Notes: generated from the letters alone by a model not told the origin. A stretch of 34,628 nucleotides of DNA from Armatimonadota bacterium (GCA_012512505.1 JAAZEB010000214.1:1-34628); one strand, 5' to 3'; counted from the stretch's first letter, positions 1 through 28,520 are shown. Numbers and translations: made by a program.

Positions 1-17
1 CGTCCGGGGAGAGGGTG

Positions 18-3206: not shown

Positions 3207-3229
3207 ACCGAGAGGAGAGTGGTTTGACA

Positions 3230-4660: not shown

Positions 4661-4677
4661 TGCAGCACACGGAGCGC

Positions 4678-4857: not shown

Positions 4858-4873
4858 CAAGGGTGGGGCAGTG

Positions 4874-5473
4874 ATGCGCGTCGTGGGCATTACCGGCGGG
4901 ATCGCAACCGGGAAAAGCACCGTTGCCGCCATGTTCGCTGAACGAGGCGCCGCCCGGATCGATTCCGACGAGCTGGCGCGCGCCGCCGTCGAACCATGCC
5001 AGCCGGCATACCACGCCGTCGTGGCCCGCTTTGGCCCCTCCTACGTGCGCCCCGATGGCTCCCTCGATCGCCGCGCCCTGGGCGACCTCGTCTTCCGCGA
5101 CGATGCCGCTCGCGCCGACCTGGAAGCGATCATCCATCCGCAAGTCACGCGCGCCATCCAGCAGCGCCTCGCTGCTCTCCGTCAGCTTCCCTGCCCACCG
5201 CCACTGGTCGTCGTCGAGATCCCCTTGCTTTTTGAGGTAGGGCTTGAGTATTTGGTGGACAAGACGATCGCCGTCTCCTCGGAACAACGCACCCAACTGC
5301 AGCGTCTAACAACCAGGACGGGACTGCCGCCCGACGAAGCTATGCTCCGCATCGCCGCGCAGATGCCTCGGGCAGAGAAGGAGCGTCGTGCCGATTTCGT
5401 GATCGACACCGACCAGCCCCTGGAGGCGGTGAGGCAAGAGGTAGACCGGGTCTGGCGCAGCCTGGTGGCGTAG
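4874..5473 (+). CDS. coaE: Dephospho-CoA kinase
   Basis: MRVVGITGGIATGKSTVAAMFAERGAARIDSDELAR (P-loop), DGSLDRRALGDLVFRDDAARADLEAIIHPQV, PLLFEVGLEYLVD; typical CoaE length of ~200 aa. Confidence 0.95.
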   Translation: MRVVGITGGIATGKSTVAAMFAERGAARIDSDELARAAVEPCQPAYHAVVARFGPSYVRPDGSLDRRALGDLVFRDDAARADLEAIIHPQVTRAIQQRLAALRQLPCPPPLVVVEIPLLFEVGLEYLVDKTIAVSSEQRTQLQRLTTRTGLPPDEAMLRIAAQMPRAEKERRADFVIDTDQPLEAVRQEVDRVWRSLVA

Positions 5474-5837: not shown

Positions 5838-8800
5838 TTGAAACGCAAATCTGCTGGGCGAATCAAGCTGTTGCCGGTACTCTTCGGTGTCCTCTCTCTC
5901 GTGGCGTTCGGTGGGGCCTTCGCGGGTGTCTCCGTACGCTTCGGTCGGTCCCAGGCCCCCGCACGCCTCGCCGCTCCCGGCGATACCACGCCTGCGGTGC
6001 CCCCCGGTCAGCGGCCCTCCATCCGCAAGCGGACGATGCCGCTGACTTCCTTCGAGCGCCCGATGCTCGACCTGCGGAACCCGGTGCCCGACAGCACTCC
6101 TACCCGCGGCCGCGCCATCGCCGTCCAGAACGTGAACCTCACCGCCGCCCCCAGCGACGAAATCGACCCGATCTGGTCGCTGGACGGCACCAAGATCTAC
6201 TTCGCCTCCAACGGCGAGGACACCGATAACGACGGTCGCATCGACCGCGTCCGCCCTGACGGCACCTATCACATCTGGGTGATGAACCCCGATGGCTCCG
6301 GTCAGCGCCAGCTTACCTTCGACCCCGGCAACCAGGTGGAGCCGGCCCTCTCCCCCAATGGCCTGCGCCTGGCCTACGCCTCCAACGAAGCTGGCGACTA
6401 CGACATTTACCTGATGACCCTCCCCTCCGGCCCCAAGAAGCGGTTGGCGCTCGGCGGCAGCGATGAGCGGCAGCCTACCTGGTCGGCCGGCGGCGACAAG
6501 GTCGCTTTTGCCTCCGACTACCAGACCGGCATTCCGAAGATCTGGAGCATGAACGCCGACGGCACCCTGCCCCAGATGCTCAGCAGCGCCGGCCCGAACG
6601 AGGACAGCCACCCCCGTTGGTCGCCCGACGGCAAGCGGATCCTCTTCCAGTCCAACGGTGTCGACAGCGACCAGGATGGTCGGATCGACGGCGCCTCGCC
6701 CGATGTCAACATCTGGACGATGTCCTACTTCGGCTCTGAGCAGACCCAGATCACCGGGCTGCAGCTCACGGCCGGCTACATCACCGACAAAGACCCGCGC
6801 TGGAGCCAGGACGGCAGCCTGATCCTGTTTGCCTCCGACCGCGCTGATACCGATAACGACGGCATCTTCGACGCCACCGCCGACTTCAACATCTACTACC
6901 TCTCCAACGGCGACCGGGAGACGGCCACCTCGAGCCCGGCGGTGCGGCTCACCCAGCGCTCGGCGACGGAGTTCAACCCGCTCACCGAGAACGAGGAGAT
7001 GCCCACCCTCTTCCCCCACAACTACCTCTACAACCCCAAGATCGCCTTCGTCTCCGACCAAACGGGTGATCACGACATCTGGATCACCTCCATTGACGAT
7101 ATTACCGACCCGCGCCTGGAAGAGCTGCCCACGGTCACCCCGCGGCAGACGATCCCTGGCGAGACGGTGACGATCACCGCTCGCGTCAGCGACCAGGAGA
7201 GCGGCGTTCAGGCGGTCTACGCCCAGATTCGCGACCCAGATGACCGCGTCACCGATGCGCTCGGCCAGGACCACAAGGTCTACTTCGTGCAGCCCGACAA
7301 CACCAACCCGGCTCTAGATGCTGCATCCTGGTACGTCTGGAGCGAGGTGGACTGCCACCAGGTGGACGCGCAGACCTACGCCTACCGCATCCCCCGCTAC
7401 CGGCCGGGCGCGGACACGCTGCTGGGGCAGCCGCCCGACCCGGGCTGGCTGCGGCTTTACGACGATGGGCAGCATGGTGACGGCGCCGCCGGCGACGGCG
7501 TCTACGGCAACACCTGGCGCACTCCCACCAATGCGCCCAGCGACTTCTACCTGGACATCATCGCCTACGACAACGCGGGCAACTGGAAGATGTACGACGG
7601 CGTTTGGGGCTTCACCACCCAGCAGTTCACCGCCACCCGCGGCGTGCTGCTGGTGATGGACTACGCCCACGGCCAGAAGTTCATGTATGGTGAGCGCGGC
7701 AACTTCCAGTACGAGATGCGCTACTTCCCCACCTGGTTCCCGGTGGAGAGCCACTACACCCGGAACCCAACGGGGATGAGCCCGTTTGATGCCGACCCGG
7801 CTGTCTACGCCAACAACATCGTCAACCTCTCTCAGTTGGGCGGTGTCCCGCCCCCGGCATACGCCCTCTCCAGCTACGCGGTGGATACCTTCCGCCAGGG
7901 CCTGGAGACGGAGAACTACGACCTGTGGCGCGTGATCTGCCGCGGCCGGATCAACCCGGACGTGCTGGCGGCCTACATGCCGCGCCAGGTTCCCCAGCCG
8001 GACTTCCAGGACCCCTATGGCGCCGAGCGGCTGCAGCTCGTGGCCGAGCGCTGCGTCTTCTGGGTGAGCCCTTACTCCGGCAACCTCTGGGTGGGTGATG
8101 GCACCATCGTGGATGCCGATACCCAGGTGAAGCTGGTCGACTTCCTCAATAAGGGCGGCCGCCTGGTCGTCACCGGGCAGGACGTGGCCTGGGCTCTGAC
8201 GCGCGGTGGTACCGCCTCGTCGCCGTTGCTCGAACGCATGGGCGTGCAGTACTCCGACGACGCCCCGGCCTGGACGGTGCCTGGCTTCAGCATGGCGGAC
8301 GACCGCCTCTTCATGAACGCCAGCGGGGGCGCGCCTACTTCCCACCCGGGGTTCGGCTACTGGGGTGAACCGGGCGAGCCGGCCGAGCTGCATATGCCGG
8401 TCTGGTCGTTCCCGATCTTCGCCGGCTCACTGCTGGCGGGGATCGATCTGTCCTCCACCTCCGCGCGCGAGCAGGCCAACCATACCGATACCGACGCCGC
8501 CGGCAACCAGTACTGGATCGACGCCGTGACGCCGATCGCCCCGGCGGAGACCGCCTATACCTATAATCCCAACGCCGGCGTGGTCAGCAGCGACGGGGTA
8601 GCCGCGGTGCGCCGGGTCGATAACGAGACGCAGGCCCGGAGCCTCTTCTTTGCCTTCGGCCTTGAGGGCGTCAACCGCGAGTACTTCGACGACAACAACC
8701 TGGGCGACCACTGCCACAACGTTCGCAACCACTTGGTGCACAACGCCATCTGCTGGCTGCGCACCGGCACTATCTACGGCAAGGTGATCTTTACCGCCGG

Positions 8801-11135
8801 GCTGGCACCCGCCAAGGACGCGCTGGTGCAGGCGTATCTCGGCAACACCCTGGTTGGCCAGGCGCGCACCCGCGCCGATGGCACCTACGAGATCCAGGGT
8901 CTGCCGCCCGCCGTCTACCGCTGCGTCGCCGTGCTGCCCGGCTTCTCCTATGACCACGCCAAGAGCGACTCGGTGCATGGCGCCGGCCGGCGCGAGATGA
9001 ACTTCCACCTCAGCGAGGCGCCGCCAGGATCGATCTCCGGCCGCGTTACCGAGGCGGATGGCACCACCGCGATCGCCGGCGCCTCGGTGACCGCGACGCT
9101 GCAGGGCCAATACAAAGGCGAGACTATCCAGAAGTCGGTGCAGTCCGACCAGTTCGGCGCCTACACGATCTCCGACCTGCCCACCGGCCTCTATGAGGTG
9201 AAGGCGACTGCCGAGGGCTTCGCCGAGCAGACCTATTCGGGGCTGGTGACGGTGAATGCCGGCGCCGAGACGGCGAATATCAACTTCATCATGGGCGGGG
9301 TGCCCGGCGGGGTGACCGGCACGGTGACCCGCGAGTCGGACAACAGCGTGGTCGCCGGGGCCACCGTGGAACTGCGGCGCACCGACACGCTGGTGGCCCA
9401 GACGGTGACCGACGACAACGGCCGCTTCACCTTCAGCAACATCGGCGCCGGCACCTACGAGATCCACGTCACCGGTGGCGCCGGCATCCTGCCGACGATG
9501 GTGACCGTGGTGGTGCAGCCCAACACCCAGGTGCGCCGCAACGTGGTGGCGAAGACGCCGCCGCCCGCGCAGATCGCCGGTCTGGTGACCGACTCTGCCG
9601 GTAACCCGGTGGCCGGGGTGCGGATCGAGGCCTACCAGGGCACTCAGTTGGTGAAGAGCGTCCTCACTGGCGACGTGGTCGAGGAAGGCGGCAACCGCTA
9701 CAACTACAAGCTGACCGGGCTTGCCGCCGGACAGTACGACGTCCGCGCCAGCAAGGGCGGCTTCAGCGGCGGCAGCACCCGGGTGACGCTGCAGGAGAGC
9801 CAGCAGTTGTTCAACGTGAACTTCACGCTCGAATCGCTGCATGTCTTCTCCAGCGGCCTGTCCATGGTCTCCACGCCTTATGACTATAGCACGCGCGACC
9901 CGGGCAACCTGCTGGGGCTGGCAACCAACCAGGTGAAGATCGCCCATTGGGTGGGCACGCGCTACGCCTACTATCCGGAAGCACCGGCCGACCGCTTCCG
10001 CAACGGTGCCGGCTACTTCCTGCTGCTCGATAAGGCGGTGTCGCTCACTCAGGAAGGCACCCCCATCGATACCAGCAAGCCGAAGGCGCTGCGCCTGACC
10101 GCCGGCTGGAACATGATCGGTAACCCGTTCCCGTTCGCGGTGAACTGGTTTGATGCTCAGGTGCAGGTGGGCGCGGAGACGATCAGCCTCAACGAGGCGA
10201 TCAGCCGCGACCTGATCAAGAACGCGCTGTGGACCTACTCCAACGGCGAGTACCGCCTGGCGTTCCAGTTGATGCCTTGGGAAGGCTACTGGGTGAAGGC
10301 GACGCAGGATCTGACCGTGCTGATCCCGAATGTGGCGGCACGGAGCGCCCAAATCGATCCCTACCGCATCCGCCGGGCCACCGAGGATGGGTGGACACTG
10401 CAGTTGGTCGCGTCGGCAGGCAACTTCCGCGACGCGTCGAACTACCTCGGAGTAGCCACGCAGGCGCGTGAGGAGTACGACCCGGGCCACGACGTGTTGG
10501 AGGCACCGCCCACCGGCATGGCCGACTGGGTGCAGCTCACCTTCCCCCACCGCTCCGGCTGGGGCCACAACAGCGGCGACTACGCAGTGGACATCCGCTC
10601 CCGCGTCGCCAAAGAGCGAGTGTGGGAGTTCGAGGTGAGCACCAGCCTGGCCGACCGCGACGTGACGCTGACCTGGCCCAACGTCGGTCAACTGCCCAAG
10701 GGCTACACCGCCATGCTGGAGGACGTGGATGCCGGCGCTCGCCGCCTGCTGCGCTCCACTGGCTTCTATACCTTCCGCTCGCCGGCACAGGGAGGGGCGC
10801 GGCGCTTCCGGCTGCGCATCAGCAAGGAGACCTCCGCCCGGCTGGCCGTGAGCGGCCTGAAGATCACGCCGACCCGCGCCGGTGGGTCTGAACTCTCGTT
10901 CGACCTGTCGGAGCCGGCCACGGTGCGAGTGCAAATCCTGGGCGCCGGCGGCCGCCTGATCCGCGAAGTGAGCGCCGGACAGGCCCGCGCCGCCGGGGTC
11001 AATAGCGTCTACTGGGACGGCCGAGACAGCCGGGGCGTCACCCTGGGGTATGGGCTCTTCCTCTACCAGGTGGAAGCGGTTGCGGAGGATGGACGCACCG
11101 TCCGCGAGATGCGGCCGTTTGTGAACGTGCGATAA
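5838..11135 (+). CDS. Very large exported multidomain protein: PD40/TolB-like propeller repeats, Rossmann/amidotransferase-like segment, carboxypeptidase-regulatory-like repeats, shared C-terminal module (protein A)
   Basis: TTG start with AGGAGGG upstream; signal-peptide-like N-terminus (MKRKSAGRIKLLPVLFGVLSLVAFGGAFAG). Repeated blades ending PxWSxDGxxIxFASxxxG; repeats such as GRVTEADGTTAIAGASVTATL...YTISDLPTGLYEVKATAEGF (CarboxypepD_reg-like); FlgD-like C-terminal segment VYWDGRDSRGVTLGYGLFLYQVEA. Confidence 0.9.
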   Translation: MKRKSAGRIKLLPVLFGVLSLVAFGGAFAGVSVRFGRSQAPARLAAPGDTTPAVPPGQRPSIRKRTMPLTSFERPMLDLRNPVPDSTPTRGRAIAVQNVNLTAAPSDEIDPIWSLDGTKIYFASNGEDTDNDGRIDRVRPDGTYHIWVMNPDGSGQRQLTFDPGNQVEPALSPNGLRLAYASNEAGDYDIYLMTLPSGPKKRLALGGSDERQPTWSAGGDKVAFASDYQTGIPKIWSMNADGTLPQMLSSAGPNEDSHPRWSPDGKRILFQSNGVDSDQDGRIDGASPDVNIWTMSYFGSEQTQITGLQLTAGYITDKDPRWSQDGSLILFASDRADTDNDGIFDATADFNIYYLSNGDRETATSSPAVRLTQRSATEFNPLTENEEMPTLFPHNYLYNPKIAFVSDQTGDHDIWITSIDDITDPRLEELPTVTPRQTIPGETVTITARVSDQESGVQAVYAQIRDPDDRVTDALGQDHKVYFVQPDNTNPALDAASWYVWSEVDCHQVDAQTYAYRIPRYRPGADTLLGQPPDPGWLRLYDDGQHGDGAAGDGVYGNTWRTPTNAPSDFYLDIIAYDNAGNWKMYDGVWGFTTQQFTATRGVLLVMDYAHGQKFMYGERGNFQYEMRYFPTWFPVESHYTRNPTGMSPFDADPAVYANNIVNLSQLGGVPPPAYALSSYAVDTFRQGLETENYDLWRVICRGRINPDVLAAYMPRQVPQPDFQDPYGAERLQLVAERCVFWVSPYSGNLWVGDGTIVDADTQVKLVDFLNKGGRLVVTGQDVAWALTRGGTASSPLLERMGVQYSDDAPAWTVPGFSMADDRLFMNASGGAPTSHPGFGYWGEPGEPAELHMPVWSFPIFAGSLLAGIDLSSTSAREQANHTDTDAAGNQYWIDAVTPIAPAETAYTYNPNAGVVSSDGVAAVRRVDNETQARSLFFAFGLEGVNREYFDDNNLGDHCHNVRNHLVHNAICWLRTGTIYGKVIFTAGLAPAKDALVQAYLGNTLVGQARTRADGTYEIQGLPPAVYRCVAVLPGFSYDHAKSDSVHGAGRREMNFHLSEAPPGSISGRVTEADGTTAIAGASVTATLQGQYKGETIQKSVQSDQFGAYTISDLPTGLYEVKATAEGFAEQTYSGLVTVNAGAETANINFIMGGVPGGVTGTVTRESDNSVVAGATVELRRTDTLVAQTVTDDNGRFTFSNIGAGTYEIHVTGGAGILPTMVTVVVQPNTQVRRNVVAKTPPPAQIAGLVTDSAGNPVAGVRIEAYQGTQLVKSVLTGDVVEEGGNRYNYKLTGLAAGQYDVRASKGGFSGGSTRVTLQESQQLFNVNFTLESLHVFSSGLSMVSTPYDYSTRDPGNLLGLATNQVKIAHWVGTRYAYYPEAPADRFRNGAGYFLLLDKAVSLTQEGTPIDTSKPKALRLTAGWNMIGNPFPFAVNWFDAQVQVGAETISLNEAISRDLIKNALWTYSNGEYRLAFQLMPWEGYWVKATQDLTVLIPNVAARSAQIDPYRIRRATEDGWTLQLVASAGNFRDASNYLGVATQAREEYDPGHDVLEAPPTGMADWVQLTFPHRSGWGHNSGDYAVDIRSRVAKERVWEFEVSTSLADRDVTLTWPNVGQLPKGYTAMLEDVDAGARRLLRSTGFYTFRSPAQGGARRFRLRISKETSARLAVSGLKITPTRAGGSELSFDLSEPATVRVQILGAGGRLIREVSAGQARAAGVNSVYWDGRDSRGVTLGYGLFLYQVEAVAEDGRTVREMRPFVNVR
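9837..11132 (+). repeat. Shared C-terminal module, copy 1 (432 codons)
   Basis: GLSMVSTPYDY...GWNMIGNPFPFAVNW...MPWEGYWVKA...DGWTLQLVA...VWEFEVSTSLADRDVTLTWPNVGQLP...; colinear with 14825-16168 and 17773-19101. Confidence 0.9.
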
Positions 11136-11145
11136 AGTGCATTTC

Positions 11146-11283
11146 CGATTGGCGATTGCCAAGGGACGATTGGCGACTGTCGGCCGCCCGCTCGCGGCCC
11201 CATCAGCCTCCCTCCCGCCCGCTTTCGCCCGCGGTGGCAGTGCTGGCGCAGCGCGCCCAGCGTCAATCGGCAGTCGTCAATCG
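11146..11283. repeat. Dyad of iterated CGATTGGCGAxTG / CAGTCGTCAATCG words between genes A and B
   Basis: Left arm CGATTGGCGATTGCC (11146-11160) and CGATTGGCGACTG (11167-11179); right arm CGTCAATCGG-CAGTCGTCAATCG (11261-11283), the reverse complement of the left arm apart from G-T type substitutions. Confidence 0.6.
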
Positions 11284-11300
11284 AGTGGAGGGGAATGCTT

Positions 11301-13088
11301 GTGAAGAACCTCAGGCGCAGCCGTTGGTCCCGGGAGATCGCCCGGGGGCTCATTCTGCTGTTCGTGTGGCCGCTGCTGCTGCTGTCGCTGCCACCCGACG
11401 CGGCGCAGGCCCAGTCCCCACTGAAGAGCGTCGCTGTCTTGGACTTCGAGAATACCACGGGCCGCTGGGGCACGGCGCTGGGGCGCAAGGCCGCGGACGC
11501 CGTGTGTCTGGAGCTGTCTCCGGAAGACTACGAAGTGGTCCGACGCGACACCGTTGAAAAGCAGATCGAAACGCTGGGTCTGCGCAAGCCGCTCGACCGC
11601 GATGCCCTCATCAGCCTGGCCACCAAGCTGGACCTGGACGCGATCATCATTGGCCGCGTCCTGCGGGCCGACATCCGCAAGGAGCGCCCTCAGCAGGCGC
11701 AGGTGCGGGTGGAAGTGCTCGTGCTTGACCCGCAGACCGGGGAATACGCCAACGGCGCCGTCAGCGACGGCCTGAGCAGCCCGCGCTACGAAGAGGTCAA
11801 CTCCAGCGTCCTCATCGAAGAGGCGGTCCATAAGGCATCGTTCCAGGCTGTCAAGCAGCTCGCGTCGCAGGAGATCCGGGATGGCACCGTCCTCTCTGCC
11901 CGCGACGGCGTGGCGCTGCTCAACATCGGCGCCCAGGACGGCGTCAAAGTCGGCATGGAGATGATCGTCCTGCGCCAGGGCGTCAAGGTTGGCCGCCTGG
12001 TGGTGCGCAGCACGACCAACCGTGACTCCGAGGCAAGCATCAAGGAGGACCTGCGCGGCATCACTTCGGAGGATAAGGCGCGCGTCGTCTACTCGCCGGC
12101 AGCCGTCACCGCGGGCGGGGCGAGCGTGGCTCGCTCGGGTGGCAAGCGCATTAGCGTCGGCAAGATCATCACCTATGCCCTCGGCGTGGCGGCCCTTGCC
12201 TACGCCCTCAAGATGGTGAAGAGCAAGGACCAGAAGAACGTGCCCGCTACCGGGGTGCGTGCCTGCGCCGCCCTCGACGGCACCGGTCAACCGGCCGTGC
12301 GCGTGACCTGGGGCAGACCCTCCACCCCCACCGCGCCGCACCTGGTCGGCTTCGTTATCTACCGCAGCACCACCCAGCACGGCTTCTACGAGCCGGTGGG
12401 CGCCGTCCTCGGCCCTTATGAGACCCAGTTCTGGGATAGCACCCTGGCCCGGACGTTCCAGAAGCCGACCGTCGGCGACACCGTGGACAATCTGGTGGAG
12501 CCGGTGCCCACGGAAGACCAGGACGCCATCGGTATTCAGCCGGGCGTGACCTACTACTACCGCGTCAGCCGGGTCTTCTGGAGGGAAGTGCCGCAAACTG
12601 ACAGCGGCAGCGGCCAGACCGGCACCACCGATAGCGAGTTCATCCTGGTCGAGTCTGACCAGAGCGAGCCGACCGGGCCGGCGACGGCGCTGGCGCGCCC
12701 GCGGCTGCAGAGCCCGGCCGATGGCGAGACCGTCAACCCGAGCAGCATCCTCTTCCGCTGGTTCTCGGTCGGCGGAGGCGACCAGTATACGCTGCAGGTG
12801 TCGGATACGCCGAGCTTCGACCCGGCCCGCACCTTCAGCAGCCCGGATGGCGACAGCCGCATGGCGCTGCCGGGCGGCGCCGACAACCAGACGATGTCGG
12901 CCACGTTCAACATCAGCGCAATGTTCCCCGCCACGGACCCGCAGACCGGGCAGTCGACGGTGCGGAACCTCTTCTGGCGGGTGGGCGTCCGGCACCGAGG
13001 GGATAGCGAGGCGCCGCTTGGCGGCTGGGTGTTCTCCGATGCCGAGCGCATGAGCACCCAGGAACTGCCGCCGCCGCCGGTGCAGTAG
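11301..13088 (+). CDS. CsgG/FlgT-like exported protein with FnIII/Ig-like C-terminal region (protein B)
   Basis: Signal peptide (GLILLFVWPLLLLSLPPDAAQAQ); SVAVLDFENTTGRWGTALGRKAADAVCLELSPEDYEVVRRDTVEKQIETLGL...LDLDAIIIGRVLRADIR (CsgG-like); VALLNIGAQDGVKVGMEMIVLRQGVKVGRLVVRS (FlgT C-terminal-like); VRVTWGRPSTPTAPHLVGFVIYRSTTQHGFYEPVG (FnIII-like). GTG 11301 fits GGAGGGG spacing better than ATG 11295. Confidence 0.75.
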   Translation: MKNLRRSRWSREIARGLILLFVWPLLLLSLPPDAAQAQSPLKSVAVLDFENTTGRWGTALGRKAADAVCLELSPEDYEVVRRDTVEKQIETLGLRKPLDRDALISLATKLDLDAIIIGRVLRADIRKERPQQAQVRVEVLVLDPQTGEYANGAVSDGLSSPRYEEVNSSVLIEEAVHKASFQAVKQLASQEIRDGTVLSARDGVALLNIGAQDGVKVGMEMIVLRQGVKVGRLVVRSTTNRDSEASIKEDLRGITSEDKARVVYSPAAVTAGGASVARSGGKRISVGKIITYALGVAALAYALKMVKSKDQKNVPATGVRACAALDGTGQPAVRVTWGRPSTPTAPHLVGFVIYRSTTQHGFYEPVGAVLGPYETQFWDSTLARTFQKPTVGDTVDNLVEPVPTEDQDAIGIQPGVTYYYRVSRVFWREVPQTDSGSGQTGTTDSEFILVESDQSEPTGPATALARPRLQSPADGETVNPSSILFRWFSVGGGDQYTLQVSDTPSFDPARTFSSPDGDSRMALPGGADNQTMSATFNISAMFPATDPQTGQSTVRNLFWRVGVRHRGDSEAPLGGWVFSDAERMSTQELPPPPVQ

Positions 13089-13096
13089 CTTAGTCG

Positions 13097-13123
13097 GGGG
13101 GCGGCGGCCTGGCTGCCGCCCCC
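13097..13123 (+). other. GC hairpin after protein B gene
   Basis: GGGGGCGGC ... GCCGCCCCC, 9-bp perfect stem immediately downstream of the stop; no T tract. Confidence 0.5.
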
Positions 13124-13180
13124 GGGCATAGGCGACCAGTTCCCAACTGAAAGCGCGATCAACAGGTGGGAGAGGGATCC

Positions 13181-16171
13181 ATGATCACTCACCGTTCACG
13201 CCTCCGCCGCCTTGCGGCAGGGGCGGGTGTCAAGGCGGCGCGCACGGGCCTTGCCCTGGCCCTGGTGGCCATTGCCGCCGCCGGCCAGGCCCTGGCGCAG
13301 CAGCAGCAGCAAGCCACCCCGATACCTTCAGTCGGTCAGGTGCGCGTCATCTGCCTGCGGGTTCAGTTCGAGCCGGCAGCGCCGCCGCTGGACCCGAGCA
13401 CCGGCAACCCGGTGGCCAACCAACTGCCGGCCACCCGGTTCAAGGCCCAGCACAACCGGCAATACTTCACCGACGTCATGGCTCGCGTGCGCGCCTACTT
13501 CCTGGAGGTGTCTCAGGGCAAGCTGGATCTCATCTCCACCATTGCTCCGACCGTCCTTTCGGTGACTGACTACAACAAGGACGAGGACTACTTCGGCGAC
13601 AACAACCAGCAGGCGGCGCGGGCGCAGGAGCTGCTGCAGACCGCGATCACCCTGGGCGAAGCGTCGGTAGACTACAGTCAGTACGACCTCGTGGTCGTCT
13701 TCCACGCTGGCGATGGCCAAGAGTCTGACTTCAAGGCCGCTGACGCCACGCTGATTCTGTCGCGTGGCGTGCGGGCGCCGATGACCGGCGGCGGCAAGAC
13801 GTTCGCTGGCGCGGTGCTGCAGTCGGCGGGCGAGGTTGCCCCCGCGGCCGGCGAGCAGCTCAGCATCGTCGGGCGCACCTGCTTCGGCATCGCCCAGGTG
13901 CTGGGCCCCAATGGCGCGATGATCACCGGCCAGGGCTTCTCGGAGCCAACCAGTGACAGCTACGTGGGCGTGTGGGACCTGATGGACCGGGGCTGGATGC
14001 TTGGCCCCCGCCTCAACACCTCGGGGCTTACCGATTGGTCGTCGCCCGCCCACCTCAACCCGTATGAGAAGGCGCGCCTGGGCTGGCTGCAGCCGATCCA
14101 GCTCACCAACAACGTGCGCAACGCCGAGATCGCCCAGGTCGCTACGACCGGCACCGTCTACCGCCTCTGGAAAGAAGGTCGGAGCGGCCCGGAGTTCTTC
14201 CTGGTGGAGAACCGGCAGCGGGTTGGCTTCGACAGCTACCTGCCGGAGACCGGCTTGCTGGTGTGGAAGGTGAACGAGGCGCTTGCCGGGCAGGTGGATG
14301 CCCAGCGGCTGCGGCTGGCGCTGCTGCAGGCGGATGGCCGTCAGGACATCGAGAACCAGACCAACACCGGCGATGGCGGCGACTGCTTCCCGGGTCAGCT
14401 AGCCCGCAAGGGCATCAACGACGATAGCAACCCGAGCACGCGTGATGCCAACGGCGCTGCCACCGGCGTGTCGATCACCGACGTGTCTGCCTCGGCGCAG
14501 ACGATGCGCGCCAGCCTCTACGTGGTGCCGCCGATGATCCTGGCGATGACCCCGAGCGGCAGCTTCACTACCGAGAGCGTTACCCCGACGTTCAAGGTGC
14601 GCTTCGCGGAGGACATCGACCCGAACACGATTGAGCTGACGCTGGACGATAGCGTGGTGGTCAGCCAGGCCAACCTCGGCAGCTACTACAACGCCGCGAC
14701 GCGCGAGCTGACCTACCGGGCGAGCCAGCTTGCCTACGGCCAGCACTCGCTGCACGTTGCCGTGCGCAATGCCGCCAAGACGGTGATGGAGTCGACCGGG
14801 AGCATGAACTTCCGGGTGAACTTCCGCACCATCCCGGCGGGCCTGCGGATGGTGTCGGTGCCCTACCGCCTGGCGGCCAACAGCAACACGCCGGCCGATG
14901 TGTTTGGCGCCGGGAACGTGGCCCGCTGGGTGGCGCCCCTGGGCGACTACCGCTATTATCCGGAGCACCCGGAAGGCGGCTTCAGCCCCGGCCCGGATGA
15001 CCCCCAGAACCCGACGCGGGTGGTGGGCGCCGCTCCGGCCGGCCTGGCCTACTGGATCAAGCTGTCGACCGACGCCCCGGTGCGCGTGGACGGCGACCAA
15101 CTGGAGAACACCGAGTACCGCATCCCGCTGTTCACCGGCTGGAACATGGTGGGCGATCCGTTCCCGTTCGCGGTGGACTGGAACGGCATCCAGGTGGAGT
15201 ACCAGGGGGTGACGAAGACGATGAGCGAGGCGGTGGAGGCCGACTGGCTCAGCGGTTCGCTCTACTCCTACACCTCCGGGGGCTACACCTGGAAGACGGC
15301 TCCCGCCGGCCAACTGAACCCCTGGGAGGGCTACTGGGTCAAGGCCAAGGTCGATTGCTGGCTGCTGGTGCCGCCGGTGCCTTCCGGCATCGCCACCCTC
15401 GGCCAGCGGGCTGCCAGCGAAGCGTTCCTCGCCGAGGGGCGCGCGGCGCTGGGCCGCGATGGCTGGCGGATCCGCCTGATGGCGCAGGCGCGCTCCGGCG
15501 CGGCGGATACGTTCAACTTCATCGGCGCCGCCGCTGGCGCGCGAGACGGTGCCGACCGCCTCGATGTGGAGAAGCCGCCTGTTCCCAGCGGGGGAACGGT
15601 GTGCCTGCGCATCCTGGATGGCGGCCGCAGCCTGGCGCAAGACCTGAAGGCTCCCGACATCGGCAACGGCAAGAGCTGGGAGTTCGAGGTCAACACCGAC
15701 CTGAAGCACGAGCCGATCACCCTGCAGTGGCCGAACCTGGGCGAACTGCCCGCCGACTACCGTGTGACGGTTGAGGATCTGGCCACCGGGCGCAAGATCT
15801 ACGCGCGCACTCGCGGCGGCTATACCTACAACTCGGGCGAAGGGGGCCCGCGCCGCTTCCGCCTGACGGTGGCGAAGCGGCTTACGGCGCCGCTTTCGGT
15901 GACCGACCTGACGGTGCAGCGCACGCGCGGCATTCCCTCGGTGCGCTTCAACTTGAGCCGCGAGGCCTCGGTGGCCGTCGAGGTGCTCAATGCCAGCGGC
16001 AAGCGGCAGTATCTGGTCACTGCCGAGCATGCTGGTGTGGCAGGAATGAACGTGGTCTCTACCGGCCGCGCTGATGGCCTGCAGCCCGGTCTTTACCTGC
16101 TGCAGGTGACCGCGACCGCGGCGGATGGCGCCACCGTGCGCGCCGTGCGGCCGTTGCTGGTAACCCGGTGA
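13181..16171 (+). CDS. Exported M6-metalloprotease-like protein lacking HExxH, with Ig-like domain and shared C-terminal module (protein C)
   Basis: Signal peptide; YFTDVMARVRAYFLEVSQGKLDL, DLVVVFHAGDGQESD, VGVWDLMDRGWM, AHLNPYEKARLGWLQP, FFLVENRQRVGFDSYLPETGLLVWKVNE are M6/immune-inhibitor-A-like. ATG 13181 with GGGAGAGGG RBS. Confidence 0.85.
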   Translation: MITHRSRLRRLAAGAGVKAARTGLALALVAIAAAGQALAQQQQQATPIPSVGQVRVICLRVQFEPAAPPLDPSTGNPVANQLPATRFKAQHNRQYFTDVMARVRAYFLEVSQGKLDLISTIAPTVLSVTDYNKDEDYFGDNNQQAARAQELLQTAITLGEASVDYSQYDLVVVFHAGDGQESDFKAADATLILSRGVRAPMTGGGKTFAGAVLQSAGEVAPAAGEQLSIVGRTCFGIAQVLGPNGAMITGQGFSEPTSDSYVGVWDLMDRGWMLGPRLNTSGLTDWSSPAHLNPYEKARLGWLQPIQLTNNVRNAEIAQVATTGTVYRLWKEGRSGPEFFLVENRQRVGFDSYLPETGLLVWKVNEALAGQVDAQRLRLALLQADGRQDIENQTNTGDGGDCFPGQLARKGINDDSNPSTRDANGAATGVSITDVSASAQTMRASLYVVPPMILAMTPSGSFTTESVTPTFKVRFAEDIDPNTIELTLDDSVVVSQANLGSYYNAATRELTYRASQLAYGQHSLHVAVRNAAKTVMESTGSMNFRVNFRTIPAGLRMVSVPYRLAANSNTPADVFGAGNVARWVAPLGDYRYYPEHPEGGFSPGPDDPQNPTRVVGAAPAGLAYWIKLSTDAPVRVDGDQLENTEYRIPLFTGWNMVGDPFPFAVDWNGIQVEYQGVTKTMSEAVEADWLSGSLYSYTSGGYTWKTAPAGQLNPWEGYWVKAKVDCWLLVPPVPSGIATLGQRAASEAFLAEGRAALGRDGWRIRLMAQARSGAADTFNFIGAAAGARDGADRLDVEKPPVPSGGTVCLRILDGGRSLAQDLKAPDIGNGKSWEFEVNTDLKHEPITLQWPNLGELPADYRVTVEDLATGRKIYARTRGGYTYNSGEGGPRRFRLTVAKRLTAPLSVTDLTVQRTRGIPSVRFNLSREASVAVEVLNASGKRQYLVTAEHAGVAGMNVVSTGRADGLQPGLYLLQVTATAADGATVRAVRPLLVTR
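14825..16168 (+). repeat. Shared C-terminal module, copy 2 (448 codons)
   Basis: GLRMVSVPYRL...GWNMVGDPFPFAVDW...NPWEGYWVKA...DGWRIRLMA...SWEFEVNTDLKHEPITLQWPNLGELP...RPLLVTR. Confidence 0.9.
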
Positions 16172-16180
16172 TCGGCACAC

Positions 16181-16315
16181 CTGCCCGGCGCCGGCGCTGG
16201 TGCCGGGCAGAGCCCGTCCAGCAGTCGGCGCTGCCGCGATGGATCGTGCCGGGGCGGGGTGTGGATGCCCGGTATCGGGCAGACGGAGTTCGTTGGCGAG
16301 CGCCCGTGAGGGCGC
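16181..16315 (+). other. Hairpin-rich C-D intergenic region
   Basis: CTGCCCGGC/GCCGGGCAG 16181-16210; TGCCCG-gtat-CGGGCA 16266-16281; GCGCCC-gtga-GGGCGC 16300-16315. Confidence 0.4.
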
Positions 16316-16362
16316 GTGAGGAGGGGCTGTCCCCTGGCGCGGACTTCGGAGGAGAAAGCTAA

Positions 16363-19104
16363 GTGAGTCGATACGGCTTCATCCGGAGAGTGGCTTTCCC
16401 GGCGGCGGTGCTGGCCGCTGCCCTCCTGTGCGGGGCTCCAATCTGGGGCCAGGGGCCCGGAGGCACGCCCGGCGGCGGCACGGGTGGTACGGGTGGCACC
16501 GGCACCGCTGGTGGCGACCCGATCAGCGGTCAGGCCACCGTGCTGCGGCTCAGCAACCAGTACATCGTGCTGGTCTACGGCCGCGATGGCACCCCCGCCG
16601 TGGTCGTTCCCGCCGCGCCGGATACCTCGATCAGCGGGCGCTGGGGCATCGCCACCACCGGCGGCGATCCGGACACGGCCGCCGATGATAACCGGCAGGT
16701 GTTCGCCTGGAACTTCCTCAGCTATCAGGTAGAACCGCAGCTTGCGGACCAGGCCACCAAGTGGTACCGCCTCGGCGACTCTGGCTCCGGGAGCTACGTC
16801 GTCGGCCCGATCGTCGACCTGCCCAGCCAGACGATCACCTCCACCTGGCAGACCAGCGGCGACATCCAGGTGCCCACCGGCGACGGCACCAACACCGAGG
16901 CGCAGCCGGCCGGGGTGCAGGTCGATGAGAAGCTGGCGCTTCTGCGCGACATGGTGCGGGTGGAGTATACCTTCCGCAACACCAGCGGGTTTGCCCGCCG
17001 GGTGCGTGCCCGCCTCTTCGTGGACCCGCTGGAGGACGCAGCCTGGATCACCGGCCGTCAGCTCGTGGAGTTTGAGACGGACTATCCGGACGGGCGCGTG
17101 CCGGACGAGTGGCGCATCTACAGCCCGATGTCCGCCCCGGAGATGGTGGTCCGCGGCATCCTCAACCGCTTTGGTGCCACCCGGCCGAACCGCTTCGTGA
17201 TCGGTGGCACAGGCCTGCTGTGCAACCCGCCTACCTGGGACTACGCGATCAACCCCGCGCTGCGCATCTACGGCACGCCGGACCCGGCCAATGAGGCTTG
17301 CCAGGCGCAGTACGAGGCGTTCCGGCTGCTGCCGGGCGAGACGCGGACGATTGTCGCCTACGCCGGCCTCGGTACGGCCGATCAGGATCCCACGCCGCCG
17401 TACGTGCTGGCGGCCCAGGGGCCGAAGACGCTCGGCTTCGTGCTGGGTGACGACCCGAACACGTCCGAACTGGAGGAGTCTTACACCACCCCGGGTACCT
17501 TCACCATCCGCGGCTTCATCTATAACTGCGCGGAGTTCGACATCACCAACGCCAGCCTCTTCCTGACGCTGCCGCCGGGCCTGCGCCTAGCCGCTGGCGA
17601 AACGGCCGTGCAGCAGATTGGCACCGTTCTGCGGATGCAGGAGGGCGCGGCGAGCTGGACGGTGGAGGTGGAGCCGGGCGTGTCGGGAACGCTCCACTAC
17701 ACGATTACCTCTTCCGGGGTGCCGGTCAACTCTAAGACGGTGACCAGCAGCATCGAGATCCCGGCGCAGACGCGGCGCAGCTTCAAGCCGGGGCTGTCGA
17801 TGATCAGCCTGCCGTTCCAGTTCGCCAACCCGGACACCGCGCGGGCCCTCGGCCTGCCGGCCGACCGCATCCGCCTGGCCCGCTGGCAGCCGGACACGCA
17901 GAAGTACGCCTTCTACCCGGATCCGGCGGTGGCGACGGTGGCGCCCGGCGCCGGCTACTGGTTCAAGCCGGACCTGGCCACGACGATGAAGCTGCAGGGG
18001 GCCACCCCGGTGGCGCGCAGCCTGTCGGCGAACTTCGTCCTGCCGGTCAAGCCCGGCTGGAATATGATCGGCGCGCCCTACGTCTACGCCGTGCCCTGGG
18101 CCAACACCCGGGTGTCCGACGGTCAGCAGGTGCTGTCGCTGGATGAGGCGGCGCGCGCTGGCTGGGTGCGGCCGACGTTGTTCACCTACAACCCGAACCT
18201 CTCGCCCCCAGGCTACGAGTTCAAGGCGATCGCCGATGCCAGCCTGGAGCCGTGGGTTGGTTACTGGCTGCGCGCCGACCGCGAGTGCTTCCTGTTGATC
18301 CCGCGGGTAACTGCGCCGTATGCCTCTATCGCGGCGCCGGATCAGCGCTCTGCCGCGGACGGCTGGCGCATCCAGCTTGCCGCGCGCACCCGCACCGCGT
18401 CGGACCTGTTCAACTTCGCCGGCGTCTCGCGGGCGACGCCCGACGGCTATGACCTGAGCGACATCGACGAGCCGCCGGTGCCGGGTGAGAGCTACGTCTC
18501 GCTGCGCTTTGTCCACTCGGACTGGGGCCGCAACAGCGGCTTCTACACCCAGGACATTCGCAGCGACGAGTTCGCCGGCGAGAAGGTGTGGAACTTCGAG
18601 GTGGCTACCGACAAGCCGGGTCAGGATGTGACGCTGACCTGGCCGGTGGTGAACACCCGGCTGCCGCGCAACTTCTCGGCGACCCTGGTCGATCTGGCTA
18701 CCGGCAAGCGCGTTTCGCTGCGCACCGCCGCCCACTACCAGTTCCAGTCGACCGAGGACCCGCGCCAGTTCCAGTTGGTGATCACCCGCCGGGCTACCAA
18801 CCGCCTGATCATCACTGACCTGCAGGTGGCCCCGGTGCGTGGGCGAGCCGGCGCGCGCGCGATCAACTTCCAGTTGAGCGGCGAGGCGGCGGTGGATGCC
18901 CGCGTGCTGGCGCCCGATGGCAAGGTGCTGTCGGAGGTGGCGACCGGCGCGGCCGGCGCCCCGGGCCGCAACGTCCTGATCTGGGATGGCACCAATCGCC
19001 AGGGTGTGCGCCTCATGTCCGGCGTGGTGCTGGTGGAAGTGATCGCGACCGATCCGAACGGCAGCACGGTGCGCGCTTTGCGCCCCTGCGTCCTCACCCG
19101 CTAA
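16363..19104 (+). CDS. Exported protein with unrecognised N-terminal domain, Gly/Thr-rich linker and shared C-terminal module (protein D)
   Basis: GTG start after GGAGGAGA; signal peptide VAFPAAVLAAALLCGAPIWG; GGTPGGGTGGTGGTGTAGG linker; C-terminal half colinear with proteins A and C. Confidence 0.88.
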   Translation: MSRYGFIRRVAFPAAVLAAALLCGAPIWGQGPGGTPGGGTGGTGGTGTAGGDPISGQATVLRLSNQYIVLVYGRDGTPAVVVPAAPDTSISGRWGIATTGGDPDTAADDNRQVFAWNFLSYQVEPQLADQATKWYRLGDSGSGSYVVGPIVDLPSQTITSTWQTSGDIQVPTGDGTNTEAQPAGVQVDEKLALLRDMVRVEYTFRNTSGFARRVRARLFVDPLEDAAWITGRQLVEFETDYPDGRVPDEWRIYSPMSAPEMVVRGILNRFGATRPNRFVIGGTGLLCNPPTWDYAINPALRIYGTPDPANEACQAQYEAFRLLPGETRTIVAYAGLGTADQDPTPPYVLAAQGPKTLGFVLGDDPNTSELEESYTTPGTFTIRGFIYNCAEFDITNASLFLTLPPGLRLAAGETAVQQIGTVLRMQEGAASWTVEVEPGVSGTLHYTITSSGVPVNSKTVTSSIEIPAQTRRSFKPGLSMISLPFQFANPDTARALGLPADRIRLARWQPDTQKYAFYPDPAVATVAPGAGYWFKPDLATTMKLQGATPVARSLSANFVLPVKPGWNMIGAPYVYAVPWANTRVSDGQQVLSLDEAARAGWVRPTLFTYNPNLSPPGYEFKAIADASLEPWVGYWLRADRECFLLIPRVTAPYASIAAPDQRSAADGWRIQLAARTRTASDLFNFAGVSRATPDGYDLSDIDEPPVPGESYVSLRFVHSDWGRNSGFYTQDIRSDEFAGEKVWNFEVATDKPGQDVTLTWPVVNTRLPRNFSATLVDLATGKRVSLRTAAHYQFQSTEDPRQFQLVITRRATNRLIITDLQVAPVRGRAGARAINFQLSGEAAVDARVLAPDGKVLSEVATGAAGAPGRNVLIWDGTNRQGVRLMSGVVLVEVIATDPNGSTVRALRPCVLTR
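17773..19101 (+). repeat. Shared C-terminal module, copy 3 (443 codons)
   Basis: GLSMISLPFQF...GWNMIGAPYVYAVPW...EPWVGYWLRA...DGWRIQLAA...VWNFEVATDKPGQDVTLTWPVVNTRLP...NVLIWDGTNRQGVRLMSGVVLVEV. Confidence 0.9.
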
Positions 19105-19153: not shown

Positions 19154-19193
19154 CACGCCACACGGGCAGGCGCCCGTGTGGCGTGTCTTTTCT
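19154..19193 (+). terminator. Rho-independent terminator
   Basis: 14-bp perfect stem CACGCCACACGGGC / GCCCGTGTGGCGTG with 4-nt loop AGGC, followed by TCTTTTCT. Confidence 0.85.
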
Positions 19194-19213
19194 GGGCATG
19201 GAAGGAGTTTGTG

Positions 19214-20485
19214 ATGGCAGAGCAGCTTGCAGTGAATGGAGGCACCCCGGTCACGCGCGAGCCATTCCCGAGCTGGCCGTATTTCGACGAGGCGACGATC
19301 CAGGCGGCGATGGAGCCCCTGCGCAGCGGCAAGGTGAACTACTGGACCGGCCCACTGGGGATGGAGTTCGAGCAGCGGTTCGCCGAGTGGTGCGGCGCGC
19401 GCTACGGCATCTCCACCAGTAACGGCACCAGCGCCTTGCACACGGCGCTGGCTGGCCTCGGCAGTGGCCCCGGCGACGAGGTGATCGTGCCTTCTTACAC
19501 CTTCATCGCCACCTCCTTCTCGGTGTGCCAGGCGGGCGCGATCCCGGTCTTTGCCGACGTGGAGCGCGAAAGCCACACCCTGGATCCCGCTGCCGTCGAG
19601 GCCGCAATCAGCGAGCGCACGCGCGCGATCATGCCGGTGCACCTCTACGGCATCATGGCGAACATGGGCCCGATCTTGGAGATTGCCAAGAAGCATAACC
19701 TGTTCGTGATTGAGGACTGCGCCCAGGGGCACGGGGCGGAGTACCGCGGCCGCCGCGCCGGCACCATCGGCGATATCGGTGCCTTCTCCTTCTGCCAGAG
19801 CAAGCACTTCACCACCGGTGGGGAGGGCGGCTGCGTCGTCACCGACGACGAGGAGGTTGCCTGGCGCTGCCGCTCGTTCCGCGACCACGGCTACGACGTG
19901 GCCCAGCGCCTGAAGCTGCTGGAGCTGGAGGCGAAGCTGCCGTACATCCACAACATGGTCGGCTTTAACTACCGGCTGACGGAGATGCAGTCGGCAATCG
20001 GCCTGCAGGCGCTGGCGAAGATGGATAACTGGAACCTGCGCAACCGGCGGCGCAATGCCGAGCGGCTCACCAGCCACCTGCAGTCGTGTGAGGCGATTGA
20101 GACGCTGCCCCTGGACACCCCGGAGCGGCGCAACTCCTACTGGCTCTACCCGATCTCGCTGCGGATGGAGCGCCTCACCTGCTCGATCAAGCAGTTCACC
20201 CAGGCGCTGGAGGCCGAGGGGATCCCCTGCGGGCCGGTGCTGTGGCCGCAGTGCTATCAGGAGCGTGCCTACCGGAACCACAACGGCTTCGGCCGCCTCA
20301 ACTACCCGTTCGGCGATCCGGCGGCGCGCCCCGAGGCGGTGCAGTACGACCGCTGCTACTGCCCCAACGCGGCCTACCTGGAGCAAAACACCTTCTTCGT
20401 GCCGGTTCACCCGGTGTATGAAGAGCGGCACATGGATCTGATCGCCGCCGGGATCCTGAAGGTGGCCCGCGCCTACGCGCGCTAG
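19214..20485 (+). CDS. DegT/DnrJ/EryC1/StrS family PLP-dependent aminotransferase
   Basis: GTSALHTALAGLGSGPGDEVIVPSYTFIATSFSV, AIMPVHLYG, VIEDCAQGHGAEYRG, GAFSFCQSKHFTTGGEGG (PLP lysine), GFNYRLTEMQSAIGL. ATG preceded by GAAGGAG. Confidence 0.93.
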   Translation: MAEQLAVNGGTPVTREPFPSWPYFDEATIQAAMEPLRSGKVNYWTGPLGMEFEQRFAEWCGARYGISTSNGTSALHTALAGLGSGPGDEVIVPSYTFIATSFSVCQAGAIPVFADVERESHTLDPAAVEAAISERTRAIMPVHLYGIMANMGPILEIAKKHNLFVIEDCAQGHGAEYRGRRAGTIGDIGAFSFCQSKHFTTGGEGGCVVTDDEEVAWRCRSFRDHGYDVAQRLKLLELEAKLPYIHNMVGFNYRLTEMQSAIGLQALAKMDNWNLRNRRRNAERLTSHLQSCEAIETLPLDTPERRNSYWLYPISLRMERLTCSIKQFTQALEAEGIPCGPVLWPQCYQERAYRNHNGFGRLNYPFGDPAARPEAVQYDRCYCPNAAYLEQNTFFVPVHPVYEERHMDLIAAGILKVARAYAR

Positions 20486-20637
20486 ACGCCGCCGTTCCGC
20501 CTGGCGTGGACGCCAGGTGCCGGAGGCTGGTTCGTTTCTCGCGAGGGGCGAAGCGTTCGCCGGGTTCGGGCCGCACCCTCGATGGCCTGAGCCCGCGGGC
20601 GCTTCGCCCCGTCACCGCATGCGCCGCTACCCGTGCC

Positions 20638-21867
20638 ATGTCAACAACACTCACCGCCACCCCCCCTGCGGCCCGGGCGCTGGCCCGGCGCTTGCAGGTG
20701 CAGTACTTTCTCGTCTTCGCCCCATTTGCCATCGTCACCACCTACCAGAACCTGCACTTCAAGCGCCTTGGCTTCAGCGACTCGCAGATCGGCAGCCTGA
20801 ACGCGATCGCGGCGATCCTGGCGGTCATCTCGCCACCCCTCTGGGGTTACGTCACTGACCGGTTGGGAGAGAAGCGCGCCCCGCTGGCGATCCTGTTGAT
20901 TACCTCCGGTGCCCTCTACCCGTTCTTCCTCGGCACGCGCTCCTTCCTCGCGGCGGCGATATTCCAGGGGGCTTTCTCCTTCTGCTTTGCCCCTTGCGTG
21001 GCGCTGACCGATGCCCTGGTCCTGGAGCAGCTTCCCCGTGCCGGTGGCGACTACGCACGGCTGCGCCTCTGGGGCTCGATGGGGTTCATCTGCACCCTGC
21101 TGGCGTTCGGGTTGTTCCTCGGGGGTGGCCCGCTGGCTCGCGCCGGGGCGCAGGGCAGCCTCACGGCTACCTTCATTGCCTTTGCCCTGGTCCGCCTGGT
21201 GAACACGGCCTGGGTGCTGCGGCTGCCGCCCGGCGAGCCGGTGGCCCCCGGCGCTGCCTTAGGCGGCGAGGTGCGCGCTTTGCTGCGCAGCCGCACCCTG
21301 ATCCTCTTCTTCGTGGCGATGCTCCTGGGAATGACCGCCCTGCGTGCCTACTACGTCTTCTTCAGCATCTACCTCGACGGCCTGGGGGTGGCTGATAGCT
21401 GGAAGGGCGTCTTCTGGAGCCTGGGAGTGGCCGCCGAGGTGGGCTTCATGCTTGTGGCGGGCCGACTGCTGCCCCGCCTGGGGGTGAAGTGGATGCTCGC
21501 CATCGGGCTGGCCGGCGGTGCCCTGCGTCTGCTCCTGTTCTCCTTCTCGCTGCCAATCGCCATGGTGGCTCTGGCCCAGGGCTTGCACGCTCTCGCCTTC
21601 GGGGCGACGCACATCGCCACCGTCACGTTCATCAACGACACCGTGCCCGACCGCCTCCGGGCCAGCGGGCAGACGTTTTACGCGGCGGTGGTCACCGGCC
21701 TGGGCGGCGCCGTGGGGTCGCGGTTGTCGGGCGACCTGGCGCAGGCGTTCGGCATCGGCGGTGCCTTCCGCCTGTGCGCGCTGTTGGCCGGGGTGGCGGT
21801 GCTGGTGGTGCTGCTGCTGCCCGGGCGGAAGGCACTGTCGGCGAACCACCACGCCGGCGGTGCGTAG
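20638..21867 (+). CDS. MFS transporter
   Basis: About 12 hydrophobic segments; QYFLVFAPFAIVTTYQNLHFKRLGFSDSQIGSLNAIAAILAVISPPLWGYVTDRLGEKRAPLAILL resembles the MFS_1-like/NupG-type N-terminal half. Confidence 0.88.
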   Translation: MSTTLTATPPAARALARRLQVQYFLVFAPFAIVTTYQNLHFKRLGFSDSQIGSLNAIAAILAVISPPLWGYVTDRLGEKRAPLAILLITSGALYPFFLGTRSFLAAAIFQGAFSFCFAPCVALTDALVLEQLPRAGGDYARLRLWGSMGFICTLLAFGLFLGGGPLARAGAQGSLTATFIAFALVRLVNTAWVLRLPPGEPVAPGAALGGEVRALLRSRTLILFFVAMLLGMTALRAYYVFFSIYLDGLGVADSWKGVFWSLGVAAEVGFMLVAGRLLPRLGVKWMLAIGLAGGALRLLLFSFSLPIAMVALAQGLHALAFGATHIATVTFINDTVPDRLRASGQTFYAAVVTGLGGAVGSRLSGDLAQAFGIGGAFRLCALLAGVAVLVVLLLPGRKALSANHHAGGA

Positions 21868-21961
21868 GACGCCAGGCGCCCCGTGGCAACCGCCGGGAGG
21901 CTCAGGGTATGCCCTGGCGGATCCTGGCCGGCAGCCCAGCGGATGAGAGGAGGGAGGGAGT

Positions 21962-22819
21962 GTGCAAGAGCGTGAGGTGCCGGCGCCCGAGCCGTCGATC
22001 CCTCGGCAGCCGGGGGTGGACGAGATCCGAGACCGACTGCAGCACGTGCTTGACGAGTATCTGATGCTCGACGCCATCCTGCGGGAGATCCAGAGCACTC
22101 GCTTCCGGGTCTGCATCTTCGGTTCGGCACGCATCCAGCCGAGCGACCAGACCTACAAGCTTGGGCGGAAGCTCACCCGGCAGTTGGCGATGGACGGGAT
22201 CGACATCGTCACCGGTGGCGGCCCGGGCCTGATGGAGGCGGCCAACCGCGGCGTGCGCGAGGCCCGCACCGGCCTGAGCATGTCCTACGGCGTCACCATT
22301 GAGTTGCCCAGCCTGGCCGAAATGGCCAACAAGCACCTGGACATCAAGAGCTCGCACAAGCGCTTCTCCTCCCGCCTGGACGAGTTCATGCGCCTGACGC
22401 ACGCGGTGGTGGTCGCGCCCGGCGGAATCGGCACCTTGCTGGAGCTGATGTACGTGTGGCAGTTGCTGCAGGTGGGGCTGATTGAGAAGCGTCCGGTGGT
22501 GCTCCTCGGCCAGAAGCTGTGGGGCGGGCTGGTGGAGTGGATCCGGCGGGAGATGCTCCCCTGCGGCTTCATCAGCCCGGAGGACCTGGAGCACGTCACG
22601 GTGGTAGACACCCTGGAGGAGACGCTGGCGCTGGTGCGCGATGCCCACAAGGCGTTCAACGAGGAGCACGCTGACACTGCCGCTGCCGCCCTGCGCGAAG
22701 GTGGCCAACCCGGCCCCCCGCCAGTGCCGACCCCCGGCGGTGCTCCCCCGGCCGGTCCGGCTCGCGGCCGCCGGCGCCCGCTGCCCCCGGCGCGTACCCC
22801 CTCCACGTCCGAGCAATAA
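21962..22819 (+). CDS. LOG family protein (TIGR00730-type putative nucleotide phosphoribohydrolase) with Pro-rich C-terminal tail
   Basis: VCIFGSARIQPSDQTYKLGRKLTRQLAMDGIDIVTGGGPGLMEAANRGVREA and VVVAPGGIGTLLELMYVWQLLQVG; GTG start with GAGGAGGGAGGG RBS. Confidence 0.9.
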   Translation: MQEREVPAPEPSIPRQPGVDEIRDRLQHVLDEYLMLDAILREIQSTRFRVCIFGSARIQPSDQTYKLGRKLTRQLAMDGIDIVTGGGPGLMEAANRGVREARTGLSMSYGVTIELPSLAEMANKHLDIKSSHKRFSSRLDEFMRLTHAVVVAPGGIGTLLELMYVWQLLQVGLIEKRPVVLLGQKLWGGLVEWIRREMLPCGFISPEDLEHVTVVDTLEETLALVRDAHKAFNEEHADTAAAALREGGQPGPPPVPTPGGAPPAGPARGRRRPLPPARTPSTSEQ

Positions 22820-22933
22820 CCGGCAAGCTGCTCGCGGCGCGGAGTGACCCCCATCCGCGCAGGGTGCTGGTCACCCCGCAGGAGCGGCGACTCCGCCGAG
22901 GGTGAGGTGCGGCAGCACAGAGGAGGGGAGGGG

Positions 22934-22967
22934 GCCCTCCGCGCCGCCAGGAGGCAGCGCGGAGGGC
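22934..22967. terminator. GC-rich hairpin between convergent genes (candidate bidirectional terminator)
   Basis: 11-bp perfect stem GCCCTCCGCGC / GCGCGGAGGGC in the gap between convergent stops (22819 and 22982); no T tract. Confidence 0.4.
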
Positions 22968-22981
22968 ACAGAATGGGCGGC

Positions 22982-24697: not shown

Positions 24698-24715
24698 GGT
24701 ATGACTCCTCTTCTC

Positions 24716-26684: not shown

Positions 26685-26703
26685 GCGCCAAACCCTCACC
26701 CGC

Positions 26704-28507: not shown

Positions 28508-28520
28508 GATAACACTCCGC

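Follow-up and report, generated by a model that had tools for sequence, protein, structure and literature searches.

The locus described here raises the question of why three exported proteins, encoded close together and different over much of their length, should all end in the same way, and what that common end does. The window, that is the whole stretch of 34,628 nucleotides analysed, is contig C117 of a draft genome of an Armatimonadota bacterium, assembled as 5.66 Mb in 396 contigs. It contains a cluster of four genes encoding proteins A to D, whose parts are as follows:

5838..11135, + strand: protein A, 1765 aa; signal peptide, PD40/TolB-like propeller, choice-of-anchor X segment, four CarboxypepD_reg repeats and C-terminal module
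9837..11132, + strand: module copy in A, 432 aa, with the stop codon at its end
11295..13088, + strand: protein B, 597 aa; exported CsgG/LpoB-superfamily domain, SH3/LysM-like segment, hydrophobic segment and fn3-like domains
13166..16171, + strand: protein C, 1001 aa; signal peptide, M6-like metalloprotease domain without HExxH, and C-terminal module
14825..16168, + strand: module copy in C, 448 aa
16363..19104, + strand: protein D, 913 aa; signal peptide, galactose-mutarotase-like supersandwich and C-terminal module
16453..17772, + strand: N-terminal supersandwich region of D (AlphaFold mean pLDDT 85.4; Foldseek)
17773..19101, + strand: module copy in D
17773..18312, + strand: part 1 of the D module, a tandem GLSM(V/I)S ... 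GWNMIG ... PWxGYW unit of ~180 aa (alignment, AlphaFold)
18361..18792, + strand: part 2 of the D module, the first Ig-like sandwich (DGW...W.FEV.T...TLTWP) (AlphaFold)
18811..19101, + strand: part 3 of the D module, the terminal FlgD/T9SS-CTD-like Ig with R as final residue (sequence searches, AlphaFold)

The start codon of C is likely to be the ATG at 13181. Export of the module proteins is supported by signal-peptide-like N-termini, read directly from the sequence.

A preliminary description had proposed that the C-terminal parts of A, C and D are copies of one colinear module, at 9837–11132, 14825–16168 and 17773–19101, and this is borne out. BLASTP comparison of the full proteins aligns their C-terminal parts only, with 33% identity over ~510 aa (E = 3e-58 for A/C, 6e-66 for C/D and 3e-75 for A/D), a similarity far beyond chance. 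Within the module alignment the identity to the first sequence is 38–39%, and ~110 of ~440 columns are invariant. All of the motifs listed in that description are columns of the alignment, in the order given there. The N-termini are unrelated, again as claimed. That of A is a PD40 propeller followed by CarboxypepD_reg repeats, and is conserved phylum-wide. The N-terminal domain of C is M6-like, scoring 87.5 bits against an M6 peptidase cut-off of 110.8, and the HExxH zinc site is absent from the M6-like domains of window C and of loci L019 and L020. It also scores 68 bits with the model of a T9SS-dependent inactivated M6 protein (NF052323), which likewise has no HExxH; this is far below the cut-off of 600, and C ends in the module, unlike NF052323, rather than in a type A CTD. 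The supersandwich of D matches GH94 phosphorylases, GalM, MdoD/OpgD and the periplasmic domain of YidC in Foldseek.

The module of D was modelled by AlphaFold from a 72-sequence alignment with a mean pLDDT of 93.7. Starting from its N-terminal end the chain forms the tandem GLSM/GWNM unit (residues 1–180), and then continues as two Ig-like sandwiches (197–340 and 347–443). No solved structure matches the whole module: Foldseek TM-scores are all near 0.2 and cover only Ig sandwiches, the matches being generic Ig and GH2-type sandwiches with Porphyromonas gingivalis PorU second. No PDB counterpart of the tandem unit was found, and no named Pfam domain was identified for the first 340 residues. 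DUF2271 matches 18/72 members, the single match inspected being at the C-terminal end. The only long structural match, in BFVD, is with a phage-labelled 587-aa 'hemin binding protein' (A0A8D9C8P8; TM 0.49, E = 2e-13, 14% identity).

The terminal domain is the part with recognizable relatives. FlgD is a hook-assembly protein, and PorU and PorZ are components of the T9SS machinery. Compared with the PDB the module profile has its best sequence match in the Ig domain of FlgD (E = 1.6e-11), followed by the C-terminal Ig of P. gingivalis PorU (6za2, E = 5.5e-5) and, weakly, PorZ (5m11, E = 0.2); A, C and D are unrelated to PorU and PorZ elsewhere. A FlgD-like terminal Ig had been anticipated, and 69/72 relatives do match FlgD_ig (PF13860, E ≤ 0.01), although among the window copies only A exceeds the gathering cut-off of 27 (37 bits; D 18.5 bits, C no match). 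The module domain belongs to the same Ig family but, unlike FlgD, it ends exported proteins, beside a GWNM/Ig cassette. The relationship to FlgD and T9SS C-terminal Ig domains is seen both in these profile matches and in the TIGR04183 matches of outgroup copies described below.

Profile searching for further copies, as had been suggested, found nine in the window genome and at least one in 95/101 Armatimonadota genomes, which commonly have two to fifteen each. Five of the six module-free genomes are in family f21 and the other in f29. The best matches, in Armatimonadetes, Fimbriimonadales, Chthonomonadales, WS1 and Zipacnadia records, put the window in this phylum. The module extends to the stop codon in ~150 open frames, drawn from 96 loci. 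A broader profile gave 148 distinct copies with intact ends, 123 of them running right up to the stop and none ending more than 9 residues before it, so that the module is a strictly C-terminal cassette of exported proteins, as had been described. The terminal residue is R or K in 143/148. One module-bearing open frame of 4768 aa elsewhere in the genome (contig C51, locus L134:2-12739, + strand) also matches the profile of the Big_1/LptD-like protein O introduced below.

The grouping in a tree of 146 modules follows operon slot rather than genome. There are clades of 32 A-slot modules (support 0.99), of C-slot modules (0.985) and of 19 D-slot modules, and the window A, C and D modules each fall inside their own slot clade. 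The three copies therefore arose before most of the phylum radiated, and the tree leads us to reject a recent tandem duplication as their origin. In one Chthonomonas-type group (loci L058, L062, L067, L078, L092 and L093) modules from all three slots form a single cluster (support 0.97), suggesting that gene conversion has acted on neighbouring copies there.

The N-terminal swapping proposed in the preliminary description stands in part. Slot C carries an S8 subtilase in most lineages examined, complete-looking in most, a C11 clostripain-like domain in L130, and the M6-like domain without HExxH in the family of the window, all on the same C-slot module lineage. Since different enzymes are thus attached to one module lineage, there is direct support for replacement of the N-terminal part. 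As an account of recent local swaps between A, C and D the proposal fails, these being phylum-wide slot lineages.

The best homologues outside the phylum are in Latescibacterota (L075), Caldithrix (L087), WOR-3/Stahlbacteria (L079, L081 and L084) and an unclassified bacterium (L094), and full-length alignments extend over model positions 2–423 for L075 and 9–418 for L087. Full-length SprA exceeds the curated cut-off in all six outgroup genomes, most of which are metagenome-derived drafts; within the same search it did so in 0/3 Armatimonadota. Terminal domains of three outgroup copies exceed the TIGR04183 cut-off of 23, at 36.3 bits (L087), 30.8 bits (L094) and, barely, 23.8 bits (L075), and only these three have the NxPNPF motif (NYPNPFN/NSPNPFN). 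The WOR-3 copies end after the first Ig, without the CTD-like domain. The cassette therefore consists of two separable units, the upstream one having its own role.

During type IX secretion (T9SS) the CTD, once folded in the periplasm, attaches to PorV loops within SprA and leaves together with PorV, which pulls it out (PMC10994853; PMC10202324). The SprA/Sov translocon is a 36-strand barrel, the type A CTD co-occurs with T9SS core genes, and the system and its sorting domains have been described as restricted to Bacteroidota (PMC10202324); a second account gives the Bacteroidetes-Chlorobi-Fibrobacteres group as their limit (PMC12421860). Our literature search found no report of T9SS-like modules in Armatimonadota. 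Like the type A CTD (TIGR04183/PF18962), the module closes Sec-exported multidomain proteins with an Ig sandwich at their very C-terminus, and the Latescibacterota and Caldithrix members provide a link of clear homology. Unlike that CTD, it is set in a fixed cassette of 430–450 aa, lacks the NxPNP motif A in all Armatimonadota copies (0/145), and occurs in a phylum where no SprA above cut-off was found in the genomes searched. Against TIGR04183 window copy C scores 14.6 bits, and A and D have no match. Given SprA and type A domains in the outgroup, and neither motif nor SprA above cut-off in the Armatimonadota copies and genomes searched, the module appears to be a diverged C-terminus of T9SS type A cargo, which may have been kept after the canonical translocon was lost or acquired without it.

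The association with T9SS raised in the preliminary description does not appear to extend to the machinery. SprA was above cut-off in 0/41 Armatimonadota genomes, the only similarity being a ~100-aa domain in barrels of 860–1200 aa. PorV-family matches were all below cut-off, with sub-threshold barrels in 20/41 genomes. No PorU was above cut-off; matches to its protease domain are sporadic, in a few genomes, one of which is that of the window. The last is a C25 (gingipain/PorU-like) protease, at most 813 aa long and without a CTD (contig C172, locus L107:6400-8838, − strand), scoring 246 bits with PF01364 and 254–258 bits with the PorU model (cut-off 420). The window genome has no match to PF18962 (Por_Secre_tail). 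A canonical T9SS is rejected there, with no SprA, PorU or PorV above cut-off and no Por_Secre_tail match. The C25 protease is likewise rejected as a general sortase, its protease domain being matched in so few genomes.

If the machinery is not that of T9SS, other outer-membrane proteins might be associated with the module. No outer-membrane protein gene lies beside the window cluster, and in relatives the operon runs A-B-C-D-B'-O-(P). Gene B, an addition to the earlier account, is part of the conserved cluster; in almost all A-type loci it separates A from C. Its family is related to CsgG (PF03783 matched by 4/20 orthologues, best E = 3e-6) and to LpoB (PDB match, E = 7e-4), with fn3-like domains added, unlike the usual CsgG/LpoB. 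Protein O (loci L131, L127–L130 and L132) consists of an N-terminal Big_1/invasin-type Ig domain, not usual in LptD, followed by an LptD body (PDB match, E = 2.5e-5). It is probably the LptD of the phylum, since it is found in 99/101 genomes, mostly as a single copy. Among the matches listed, 33 genomes have module and O on one contig and so can be compared; of these, 31 have a module gene no more than 12 kb from O and 19 no more than 2 kb from it, the distances being upper bounds. O also occurs in families without the module, and LptD is thereby ruled out as a module-specific partner. Gene P belongs to the same operon in some families, and its best PDB match is PorV (6h3i, E = 3.8e-8), below the PorV model cut-off. 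Its strong orthologues are confined to ~9/101 genomes, and it is rejected as a universal partner. Contig C305 of the window genome (L131) carries O and P, and its contig C20 (L133) carries two more module genes together with a B-like gene. Comparison with L127 and L128 suggests that C305 and C20 are one broken locus.

In a third setting a module gene is paired with the 860–1200 aa barrel that has the ~100-aa domain in common with SprA. Comparison of this barrel with the PDB gave no SprA match, and the short domain is all that they have in common. A module gene lies within ~2 kb at 6/9 such loci, some of which were picked for apparent closeness. The barrel is found in about 70/101 genomes, and in 24/27 families with a strong module compared with 0/7 with a weak one or none (Fisher p = 2e-5, with kinship ignored and the strong/weak threshold chosen after the data were seen). 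It is missing from several module-bearing families. Some of these barrels (L106, L109, L112 and L115) contain a repeat with further matches among phage distal-tail proteins (DUF2460/TIGR02217), and at some loci CsaB-like and DUF5693-like genes appear by eye to adjoin the barrel gene. The PorV-like barrel, the short barrel with the SprA motif and LptD are all candidate partners, and no single one is co-extensive with the module.

The reading that we prefer, at a probability of roughly 55%, is that the module is a cassette derived from T9SS cargo that diversified in a phylum where SprA was not found, and whose terminal Ig docks on an outer-membrane barrel. The three parts (GLSM/GWNM unit, Ig sandwich and terminal CTD-like Ig) would come from the C-terminal region of type A cargo, and would have been kept and diversified in Armatimonadota. 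The proteins would leave the cytoplasm by Sec, after which the cassette would fold in the periplasm. The terminal Ig would then dock on its partner, leaving the variable N-terminal part on the outer membrane or anchoring it there. That partner could be the PorV-like barrel where present, the small SprA-motif barrel, or an assembly that is linked to LptD and includes the CsgG/LpoB-like B. The A, C and D slots would be ancient, with the enzyme ahead of the cassette exchanged within slot C (subtilase, clostripain-like, dead M6). Docking, translocation and surface location are predicted by analogy with T9SS, and display or anchoring at the surface, as first proposed, would be the likeliest role. 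A narrower form is more tentative: that the cassette is read by a SprA-independent route of export or anchoring at the outer membrane, through the SprA-motif and/or PorV-like barrel together with the LptD-linked operon. If this doubtful step is correct, it would constitute a distinct secretion or display system that has its signal in common with T9SS but not its translocon.

Because no partner tracks the module across the phylum, real weight stays with a different function, although we hold it to be the lesser possibility. The module might be an assembly domain of an envelope complex, joining A, C and D to B and LptD without acting as an export signal; these proteins would then be periplasmic or line the outer membrane from inside, and would aid outer-membrane or lipid assembly. 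This would fit the conserved operon A-B-C-D-(B')-LptD, with B kept between A and C, the closeness of module genes to LptD (31/33 within 12 kb, 19 within 2 kb) and the resemblance of the D N-terminus to MdoD/OpgD and other glucan-binding supersandwiches. However, LptD is equally present in module-free families, other module proteins are encoded away from it, complete-looking slot C subtilases are more typical of exported or surface enzymes, and the outgroup homologues are T9SS cargo.

A further alternative is a true T9SS so diverged that the models no longer recognize its translocon, motor and sortase. This we consider unlikely: the SprA search that recovered full-length proteins in six distant genomes gave 0/41 in Armatimonadota, PorU-like proteins are sporadic, and the window genome has no Por_Secre_tail match, notwithstanding the sub-threshold PorV-family barrels in 20/41 genomes with PorV as best PDB match, the C25 PorU/PorU2-like protease at 254–258 bits (cut-off 420) and the SprA-motif barrel in ~70/101 genomes (24/27 against 0/7 families, subject to the same kinship and post hoc threshold). 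A search for GldM found nothing, and as it was equally silent in all genomes and all controls it is uninformative. Least probable of all is an ordinary ligand-binding tail, for example for glycans, that is C-terminal by descent only. The generic Ig and GH2-type sandwiches matched by Foldseek, and the occurrence of the upstream unit without the CTD-like Ig in WOR-3, would be compatible with it, but a near-absolute end position with a terminal R/K in 143/148 goes beyond what a free-floating binding domain needs, and homologues have bona fide sorting domains in the same place.

Returning to the cargo-derived cassette, homologous C-termini throughout a phylum with no detectable SprA would mean either that the signal uses another outer-membrane machine or that cargo tails have become structural modules. 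Either answer bears on the origin of T9SS, and can be tested with the module proteins, B, the LptD-like O, the PorV-like P and the SprA-motif barrel. The analysis also describes a conserved and unnamed operon beside LptD in a poorly studied phylum.

In the window the cluster is flanked by other genes, assigned by reading translations. Upstream (1–5473) are polA, rpsA and coaE. Downstream of D (19178–34628) are ordinary genes, including a DegT/DnrJ aminotransferase, an MFS protein, a LOG family protein and two ABC transporters, together with a TolC-like protein, TrpS, a kinase and a TPR protein.
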